From: Sulfurimonas sp.
GTDB taxonomy: Bacteria; Campylobacterota; Campylobacteria; Campylobacterales; Sulfurimonadaceae
Reading direction: 5' to 3'
Assembly: GCA_026996295.1 (NCBI GenBank)
Contig: JALWLL010000104.1
Coordinates: forward strand, 1 to 34,759
DNA: 34,759 nt
Each line of letters begins with the position of its first letter. Positions within the stretch are counted from its first letter, which is position 1. Shown here piece after piece: positions 14,756-34,759 of this stretch. The notes under the pieces are model-generated. The model saw nothing but the letters and a program-made list of their open reading frames with translations. It ran no database searches and was not told the DNA's origin. The translations under genes and the position numbers were made by a program.

Positions 14756-14968
14756 TTACAGGCGTGATTCGTAACGTCTCATCATATAAAGACGTTTAAG
14801 CATTTTTTTACGAGCTGAAATTTTGAACTTCTTACGTTTCTCAGTTTCTGTTTCGTGGAAACGGCGAGCACGAGCTTCTGTAACGATTAAGTTACGGTCA
14901 GTCTGCTTCTTGAAACGTCTGTAAGCTGCATCAAAATTATCATCTGGACGTAGTACAATACCAGGCAT
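14756..14968 (-). CDS. rpsU: 30S ribosomal protein bS21
   Basis: 70 residues starting [20 protein letters not shown], an unmistakable bS21: acidic/aromatic N-terminus, then very basic helices ending in [12 protein letters not shown]. bS21 sits near the 16S 3' end and helps mRNA selection. GGTGAT before the start is complementary to the 16S tail. A consensus-like extended -10 and a tight terminator flank it, so it is monocistronic and transcribed away from dnaG, unlike the E. coli rpsU-dnaG-rpoD operon. Confidence 0.98.
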
Positions 14969-15068: not shown

Positions 15069-15082
15069 TTGATCTATATCAA
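15069..15082. promoter_or_regulatory. FNR/CRP-family binding site
   Basis: TTGATCTATATCAA is an exact match to the FNR consensus TTGAT-N4-ATCAA and is fully palindromic in its arms. Its centre (15075.5) lies 41.5 bases before the start predicted from the TAAAAT element at 15105-15110, the classic class II activator spacing. It sits between divergent rpsU and the small peptide gene; spacing favours the peptide as target. Confidence 0.65.
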
Positions 15083-15104
15083 CAGCTTCTTTTTTTAAAT
15101 CAGA

Positions 15105-15110
15105 TAAAAT
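15105..15110 (+). promoter_or_regulatory. -10 element of the small peptide gene
   Basis: TAAAAT, predicted start near 15117, with the FNR-type box centred 41.5 bases upstream. There is no recognisable -35, as expected for an activator-dependent promoter. Confidence 0.5.
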
Positions 15111-15129
15111 TTGTCCGATTTAAAATTTT

Positions 15130-15146
15130 AGAACGTAATGCGTTCT
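15130..15146 (+). other. Short hairpin in the leader of the small peptide gene
   Basis: Inverted repeat AGAACG/CGTTCT with a 5-base loop, six bases before the AAAGGA Shine-Dalgarno. It could affect mRNA stability or be incidental. Confidence 0.35.
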
Positions 15147-15162
15147 TACCAAAGGAAATAAA

Positions 15163-15294
15163 ATGAAAAAAATCATTTTAACAATTGTTTTAATATGTGG
15201 TGCTCTTGGAGCAGATTCTATAGTGCATTATGATACACGAGATACGCCAAATCCAATCTCTAAACCAAACCATCCAAGTTCTGAGCTTTATTAA
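15163..15294 (+). CDS. Small exported peptide (43 aa)
   Basis: Short open frame with the marks of a real gene: AAAGGA Shine-Dalgarno at 15151, ATG, a signal peptide MKKIILTIVLICGALGA with a good cleavage site, and a perfect-stem terminator downstream. The mature peptide would be about 26 residues starting DSIVHYDTRD and ending HPSSELY, polar and Pro-rich with two His and no mature Cys. No family recognised. It is preceded by a class II FNR-type promoter, so expression may follow oxygen or redox state. Function unknown; periplasmic location is predicted. Confidence 0.72.
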   Translation: MKKIILTIVLICGALGADSIVHYDTRDTPNPISKPNHPSSELY

Positions 15295-15318: not shown

Positions 15319-15358
15319 TTTGCTTCTATAGTAAGGCTTTGATCTCTATAGAAGCAAA
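15319..15358 (+). terminator. Terminator after the small peptide gene
   Basis: Perfect 13-bp inverted repeat TTTGCTTCTATAG/CTATAGAAGCAAA with a 14-base loop, followed by a run of T. It isolates the small peptide from dnaG, which starts 40 bases later. Confidence 0.7.
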
Positions 15359-15397: not shown

Positions 15398-17044
15398 ATG
15401 ATTACCCAAGATTCCATAGAAGCCTTAAAGGCACGACTTGATGTTGTTGATGTAGTAGGTTCTTATGTAGAGTTGAAAAAAGCGGGTGCGAACTTTAAAG
15501 CCCCTTGCCCTTTTCATGATGAAAAAACAGCCTCTTTTGTTGTAAGCCCTGCTAAGCAGATATACCATTGTTTTGGGTGTGGTGTCGGTGGCGACAGTGT
15601 CAAGTTTGTTATGGAGTATGAGAAGCTTAATTATCCGGAAGCTTTGGAAAAACTTGCATCTTCGTATAATTTTACACTTGCGTACACAGATAACAAACAT
15701 AACAAACCACGCTCACAGGTTATGGATGTAGTAAACTCATGGTATCAAAATCTCCTTGTTTCAAATACCACTGCAAATGCTTACTTGAAAGAAAGAGGGA
15801 TATATGAGAGCTCTATTGAAAAGTTTGGTATCGGGTATGCTCCGGATTCAAATGCGACGATACACTTTATTAAGTCCCAGTCACTTCCCATAGCCGAAGC
15901 TGTAAACATGGGTGTTTTAGGTTCTGACGGCCATAGAACGTTTGCCCGTTTTATAGAGCGTATAACCTTTCCCATACACTCTTCAAACGGAACACTTGTC
16001 GGTTTTGGAGGCAGAACCATTACGGGGCATCAGGCGAAGTATGTAAACTCTCCCGAGACACCGTTTTTTAACAAGTCCAAACTTTTGTATGCCTATAACC
16101 ATGCAAGGCAAAGCATATACAAACAAAAAGAGATCATCATAACAGAGGGTTATCTTGATGTGATTATGCTTCATCAGGCAGGGTTTTTAAATGCTGTTGC
16201 AACGCTTGGAACAGCACTGACACCTGAACATCTGCCACTTCTAAGAAAGGGTGAGCCTCGTATTGTTATGGCGTATGATGGAGACAAGGCAGGACGTGCA
16301 GCAGCACTCAAGGCGGCAAAACTTCTGAGTGCTTCGGGTTTTAACGGGGGAGTCGTTATTTTTGGTGGTGGACTTGATCCCGCGGACATGGTAAAAAACG
16401 GGGAAACAGAAACACTTAAAAAGATGTTTATAAGACCGGTTGCTTTTATAGATTTTGTTTTGGGGGAGATTCTTGCTTTATATGATTTGCGAGATCCAAA
16501 AGCCAAAGAAGCGGCCATGCATGAGGGTGTGGCATATATTAAAACACTTTCAGCGATCCTTCAAGACAGATACAAAGCAGATTTTGCGCAAAAGCTCGGC
16601 ATCAACCCCTCTTATATACGACTTAACAATCAAAGCAACATACAAAAGCCCTCTGCCATTGTGCAAAACAACAGGCACAAAGATGCTTGGGAACTTGCTC
16701 TTGTAAAAACAGTGTTGGAGTATCCACAGTTTATAGATCAGATACTCGATGTTCTTGATCCCTCTTTATTGCAGTTTCACTCCAGAGAGTTCTCTTTGGC
16801 ACTAAAAGGTCAAAGAGATGCCCCTGAACTGATGGCGATCATGGTCGATGAGAATATTCTCTCTTTACAAAGTGAGGAGGAGTTAAGAGCTGAGCTTATA
16901 ACCTTTTTAACCAAACACTACGAAAGAGAACTTAAAAAAGTCAATATGCAAAACTCCATCTCTTTTGAGGAGAAGGCTTTTTATATACGTAAGTTTCGTG
17001 GTAAAATTGCGGCATTAAAACGAGGTGAACTGGCTGGAGTGTAA
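15398..17044 (+). CDS. dnaG: DNA primase
   Basis: 548 residues; makes RNA primers for replication. The N-terminal CHC2 zinc finger has ligands Cys37, His40, Cys58 and Cys61 (CPFH...CFGC). The catalytic core has the FPIHSSNGTLVGFGGRT segment, and the Toprim domain has Glu250 (TEGYLDVIMLHQAGF) and Asp294/Asp296 (AYDGDKAGR). The C-terminal ~150 residues form a divergent helicase-binding region. It starts at an ATG inside TTTTTATG and has no strong Shine-Dalgarno. It is not in an operon with rpsU (opposite strand) or a visible sigma factor. Confidence 0.97.
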   Translation: MITQDSIEALKARLDVVDVVGSYVELKKAGANFKAPCPFHDEKTASFVVSPAKQIYHCFGCGVGGDSVKFVMEYEKLNYPEALEKLASSYNFTLAYTDNKHNKPRSQVMDVVNSWYQNLLVSNTTANAYLKERGIYESSIEKFGIGYAPDSNATIHFIKSQSLPIAEAVNMGVLGSDGHRTFARFIERITFPIHSSNGTLVGFGGRTITGHQAKYVNSPETPFFNKSKLLYAYNHARQSIYKQKEIIITEGYLDVIMLHQAGFLNAVATLGTALTPEHLPLLRKGEPRIVMAYDGDKAGRAAALKAAKLLSASGFNGGVVIFGGGLDPADMVKNGETETLKKMFIRPVAFIDFVLGEILALYDLRDPKAKEAAMHEGVAYIKTLSAILQDRYKADFAQKLGINPSYIRLNNQSNIQKPSAIVQNNRHKDAWELALVKTVLEYPQFIDQILDVLDPSLLQFHSREFSLALKGQRDAPELMAIMVDENILSLQSEEELRAELITFLTKHYERELKKVNMQNSISFEEKAFYIRKFRGKIAALKRGELAGV

Positions 17045-34683: not shown

Positions 34684-34759
34684 GGACAGCTGGCCGAGTG
34701 GTCGAAGGCGCACGCCTGGAACGCGTGTATAGGGCAACCTATCTAGGGTTCGAATCCCT
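34684..34759 (+). tRNA. tRNA-Ser(GGA), 3' end cut by the window edge
   Basis: Acceptor 5' strand GGACAGC, conserved T8 and D-arm GGCCGAGTGGTCGAAGGC, anticodon stem CACGC/GCGTG with loop CTGGAAC giving anticodon GGA (34718-34720), a long variable arm typical of serine tRNA, and the T-arm GGTTCGAATCC. The window stops before the 3' acceptor strand. Serine assignment rests on the long variable arm and anticodon. Confidence 0.93.

Follow-up and report, generated by a model that had tools for sequence, protein, structure and literature searches.

How a short interval between rpsU and dnaG in Sulfurimonas is used by the cell is the question raised by a 34,759-nucleotide stretch of Sulfurimonas sp. 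DNA, here called the window. A first-pass annotation, made from the letters alone, had proposed that this interval holds an unlisted gene for an exported peptide of 43 residues, easily overlooked, and, from an FNR-type box, that the peptide is induced by redox state or low oxygen. We were interested in establishing whether the frame is a gene, which elements make up its promoter and which regulators may act there. Our overall reading, to which we give about two chances in three, is that of a single-gene unit that would be activated by a Dnr/Nss-type protein and repressed by an IscR-like protein of the Rrf2 family, and whose product would be a periplasmic stress peptide. The features of the locus are collected in Table 1.

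Table 1. Features of the rpsU-dnaG interval, in window coordinates
Feature	Position	Strand	Remarks
rpsU, divergent neighbour	14756..14968	-	
FNR/Dnr-type activator box TTGATCTATATCAA	15069..15082	+	centre 15075.5 = -41.5; position kept in 27/28 dnaG-linked copies
27-bp palindromic operator TAAATCAGATAAAATTTGTCCGATTTA	15096..15122 (extends to 15094-15124)	.	IscR type-1-like geometry; covers -10 and predicted start
-10 hexamer TAAAAT	15105..15110	+	29.5 bp from box centre
Predicted transcription start	15117	+	inferred from the -10
Leader hairpin, covarying 7-pair stem	15130..15146	+	79 copies with 7/7 pairs
Ribosome-binding site AAAGGA	15151..15156	+	conserved as AAAGGAAACAAA among copies
43-aa exported peptide ORF MKKIILTIVLICGALGADSIVHYDTRDTPNPISKPNHPSSELY	15163..15294	+	signal peptide about residues 1-17; ATG at 15163, stop codon ends at 15294
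Terminator-like hairpin, perfect 13-bp stem	15319..15358 (arms 15319-15331 / 15346-15358)	+	
dnaG, downstream neighbour	15398..17044	+	marker of the orthologous copy

The peptide gene and its relatives

The frame with its signal peptide and the AAAGGA before it are both present as first annotated, and the peptide is conserved in close relatives, which had been named as a check on the proposal. In a search of 100 genomes of the genus, full-length relatives at about 45-74% identity were found in about half, and a single genome had as many as five copies; the tally of 68 from this search also counts weak matches to parts of long frames that are unrelated. Named genomes, when scanned, yielded 73 loci. 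One of these has no label but 'bacterium', and all the others are labelled as Sulfurimonas or as related Campylobacterota. About 111 of 115 distinct copies belong to Sulfurimonas and close relatives. Across the order (399 genomes), matches were confined to the Sulfurimonas-group family and a second Campylobacterales family (f4), which has divergent homologues of 64-70 residues, some with three VxYD repeats. Substitutions among the family copies fall predominantly at the third codon position (1881, 1012 and 3923 at positions 1, 2 and 3), and median dN/dS is 0.17. Conserved relatives, third-position changes and this ratio together identify the 43-residue frame, on comparative grounds, as a genuine gene, and uphold the view that it was an exported-peptide gene easily missed.

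Members of the family share a signal peptide that ends near LQA|D, a V-x-Y-D that hardly varies and a K-P-N-H/Y-P motif. In the AlphaFold model only the N-terminal signal helix is confident and the remainder is disordered. The two histidines of the peptide, His22 and His37, are both replaceable and neither is invariant, so that metal binding does not appear to be favoured by conservation. The peptide gave no match of note in Pfam and NCBIfam, no match in PHROGs and PADLOC and no relative among PDB sequences, and a literature search found no description of it. A known peptide family was rejected on the Pfam, NCBIfam and PDB results, and an antiphage or phage origin on those from PADLOC and PHROGs. 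The family is an undescribed one, present in none of these libraries.

A small, multi-copy peptide with a hydrophobic N-terminus could also be a type I toxin, silenced by an antisense RNA. However, the hydrophobic part ends at a signal-peptidase-like site, conservation takes in the hydrophilic C-terminus as well, and the operator described below is held in common with repair genes. We consider a toxin very unlikely.

Three classes of copies were distinguished when the operator was counted: 28 linked to dnaG, 17 linked to two-component genes and 65 others. Those flanked by both rpsU and dnaG are, judged by their position, orthologous. The source genome has three members, the dnaG-linked copy and two more (C84 and C115). 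In the two-component class, genes for a PAS histidine kinase and a response regulator are convergent to the peptide gene, within about 20 bp in most cases, an arrangement that would suit a secreted peptide signal sensed by the adjoining system. Most copies, the dnaG-linked one included, nevertheless do not stand beside a two-component system, and the kinase starts with a PAS-like domain, with no obvious periplasmic sensor by eye; a signal of this kind is in our estimate the least probable explanation. The genes next to dispersed copies, named by eye except where tested with Pfam, include nrdD with an NrdG-like radical-SAM gene, nitrite/sulfite reductase and pyruvate:ferredoxin oxidoreductase. 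They mostly encode Fe-S or haem redox proteins, and other copies lie by unrelated genes.

The leader hairpin reported earlier is also present. A hairpin that starts with AGA and has at least 6 pairs was found in 85 copies, and a 17-mer with all seven pairs in the 79 copies of Table 1. Compensatory variation at pairs 5-13 and 6-12 indicates that the stem is an RNA structure. It is an accessory one, since most two-component-linked copies lack it and none was seen in f4. Four copies (L054, L060, L064 and L066) have an insertion between operator and hairpin, and two of them share a CCATAGCGGCTAGCG stretch.

A conserved, covarying hairpin in a short monocistronic unit, whose transcript folds better than shuffled sequences (z -2.9), might mean that the transcript is chiefly a small regulatory RNA and the peptide secondary. 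The dN/dS value speaks against this, as does the persistence of the peptide motif in those very copies where the hairpin is missing or not seen, and we regard a regulatory RNA as an unlikely explanation of the locus. Rfam gave nothing at the peptide locus. A tRNA gene lies at 34684-34759, where it is cut by the end of the window.

The perfect 13-bp stem annotated downstream does exist, but it lies past the point at which the first-pass annotation closed the unit, and we call it terminator-like rather than canonical because its T-run begins 7 nt past the stem.

An activator box and an operator in the same promoter

The exact TTGAT-N4-ATCAA box stands where it was first noted, and its class II position is conserved in the orthologues. 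No other perfect box occurs in the window, where 0.13 are expected per strand. Genome-wide there are nine perfect boxes against one for the reversed control; several of the nine are inside genes, and the box on its own would therefore not have been conclusive. The combination of a box and a -10 at the observed spacing occurred in none of 400 simulated windows.

Comparison among copies gives the spacing its weight. A box with at most one mismatch is present in 27 of the 28 dnaG-linked copies, and 26 of these 27 place its centre 29.5 bp from the -10, the remaining one being off by one. Eleven of the 17 two-component-linked copies are boxed, and in all 11 a TAnnAT-like hexamer lies 29.5 bp from the box centre. 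The source-genome copy C115, which lacks the palindrome, keeps this spacing between its box and a TATAAT. A fixed spacing between box and -10 is required by class II activators of the Crp/Fnr family. The constancy found in three settings is, with the start itself predicted, the geometry of a class II activator.

The first annotation had overlooked a second element, the 27-bp palindrome, with the pattern TAAATnnGA-N9-TCnnATTTA. Allowing one mismatch, it is present in all 28 dnaG-linked copies, in 17/17 two-component-linked copies and in 58 of the 65 others, and in none of about 2200 shuffled sequences. In the two-component class the palindrome is displaced 26 bp downstream relative to the dnaG-linked copies; the 29.5-bp spacing of the box is kept in spite of this shift, which argues that box and operator are separate elements.

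Most paralogues are without a box. Among these (e.g. L020:1384-1396) we observed a common element that contains CTTAAA and lies upstream of the operator, about 58 bp from its centre. A tpx promoter (L198) has an 11-bp direct repeat, AAACTTAG, suggestive of an OmpR-family activator.

The operator is not restricted to the peptide genes. In the source genome it is also found upstream of nifS-nifU and tpx, and in other genomes upstream of superoxide reductase, tpx, mrp beside thiC (the latter identified by eye), sufB and an nfuA-like gene. Raw counts of the pattern in the larger genomes are near those of the reversed control, and the regulon consequently rests on the recurrence of the same gene identities and not on counts. 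Several Sulfurimonas genomes, some of them complete (G030, G031, G054), have no detectable member of the peptide family, which is thus not essential to the regulon. In genome G012 (L201:2215-2290) an operator lies between a CorA-like gene and uvrB, beside a CTAAAATAGG...CCTATTTTAG hairpin and with no peptide between; the usual place of this hairpin is downstream of peptide copies, and the arrangement may be what is left of a copy since lost.

Candidates for the two regulators

The gene set of the operator points to an Rrf2 regulator of the IscR type, since Fe-S assembly genes (nifSU, sufB, the nfuA-like gene and mrp) have the operator in common. Its inner half-sites, GAY-N7-RTC, fit the type-1 motif of IscR as given in PMC3899308, where tpx of Pseudomonas aeruginosa is also described as under direct IscR control. 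As in the IscR regulons of E. coli and P. aeruginosa, the GAY-N7-RTC palindrome lies over the promoter, and the genes that follow it include those for Fe-S assembly and tpx. Unlike those regulons, the outer half-sites here are TAAAT/ATTTA and the candidate regulator scores under the IscR equivalog cut-off. We know of no small exported peptides described among IscR targets.

The source genome encodes two Rrf2 proteins. One (L214) has three cysteines, and its gene lies between flhA- and rpsO-like genes. This type was conserved in 10 of 10 genomes searched, with the three cysteines present in all nine full-length homologues read. It scored 52.7 bits against the IscR equivalog TIGR02010 (cut-off 207.55) and 68.3 bits against TIGR02944 (cut-off 110.65), and is called IscR-like, not IscR, because it falls below the equivalog cut-off. 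The conserved three-cysteine protein is likely to be the repressor at the operator. No operator was seen upstream of the Rrf2 gene, and autoregulation through it was rejected for this reason. The other protein, the CymR-like L215, was set aside as it has no cysteine triad and its gene, between metY-like and cysK-like genes, stands in a setting of cysteine metabolism.

The box sequence and its centre at -41.5 are those of class II FNR promoters, and they are what the proposal of an oxygen-sensing FNR driving a low-oxygen secreted peptide has in its favour. The candidate activators differ from FNR. A census of the source genome with a single Pfam model (PF13545) found four Crp/Fnr proteins, and the N-terminal cysteine cluster of FNR is present in none of the four. 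A review states that Campylobacterota encode no FNR orthologue (PMC6682613), and the operator that covers the -10 belongs to a gene set for Fe-S and oxidative stress. Low-oxygen control through FNR is thus unsupported in the form first annotated, and is in our judgement quite unlikely.

A Dnr/Nss-type protein fits the box better. Two of the four proteins (L217 and L218) have PETLSR in the recognition helix and a third (L219) has PATLSR, an FNR-like helix, and the genes of these three are near nir-like genes, napA and nosZ (neighbours named by eye). Two other intergenic boxes stand upstream of nos and of ahb/nir-like genes. Dnr is an NO-responsive activator whose consensus, TTGATnnnnATCAA, is identical to the box (PMC1274295), and the Nss proteins of Wolinella respond to nitrate, NO and N2O (PMC6682613). 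The resemblance to the Dnr/Nss group (NssA, NssB, NssC, NssR) therefore lies in the Dnr box and in Crp/Fnr genes that adjoin nap, nir-like and nos genes; in contrast, NssR of C. jejuni uses TTAAC half-sites (PMC1274295), and binding of the activator here is predicted. The missing cysteine cluster, the nap/nir/nos neighbours, the reported lack of FNR in Campylobacterota and the consensus shared with Dnr together make a Dnr/Nss-like activator responding to nitrogen oxides, and not an oxygen-sensing FNR, the probable one. For both regulators it is the identity and the signal that we infer, from gene context and motifs.

A possible role at the cell envelope

The arrangement suggests how the unit might work. 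A small single-gene transcript would encode a peptide for Sec export, about 26 residues long once mature. During nitrogen-oxide respiration, a Dnr/Nss-type activator would bind the box at -41.5 and recruit RNA polymerase, and an Rrf2 repressor that resembles IscR and carries a labile Fe-S cluster would sit on the palindrome over the -10 and the start until cluster damage or iron shortage released it. The peptide would thus be produced when nitrogen-oxide respiration and Fe-S or oxidative damage coincide. A compact promoter of this kind would join nitrogen-oxide and Fe-S signals, and it provides a candidate operator and regulon for a little-studied three-cysteine Rrf2 protein of Campylobacterota.

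What the peptide does is a guess from its regulation and context, made with low confidence: it may be a small periplasmic peptide that protects exposed redox proteins or serves as an accessory to them. Repair in the cytoplasm is what Fe-S-sensing regulons are known for. Nearly every member of this multi-copy exported family bears the operator of the Fe-S assembly, tpx and superoxide reductase genes, and the redox neighbours of the dispersed copies agree with that gene set. Tentatively, and at rather less than even odds, the V-x-Y-D family of Sulfurimonas and f4 might be a dedicated output arm for Fe-S and oxidative stress that guards or services extracytoplasmic redox enzymes, its copies responding separately to nitrogen oxides and to other signals. 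If true, this would be an extracytoplasmic arm of the Fe-S response in sulfur-oxidising denitrifiers.

In four copies (L128, L131, L155 and L047) the gene for a small cytochrome c begins 3-12 bp past the peptide gene, which suggests that the two are co-transcribed there.
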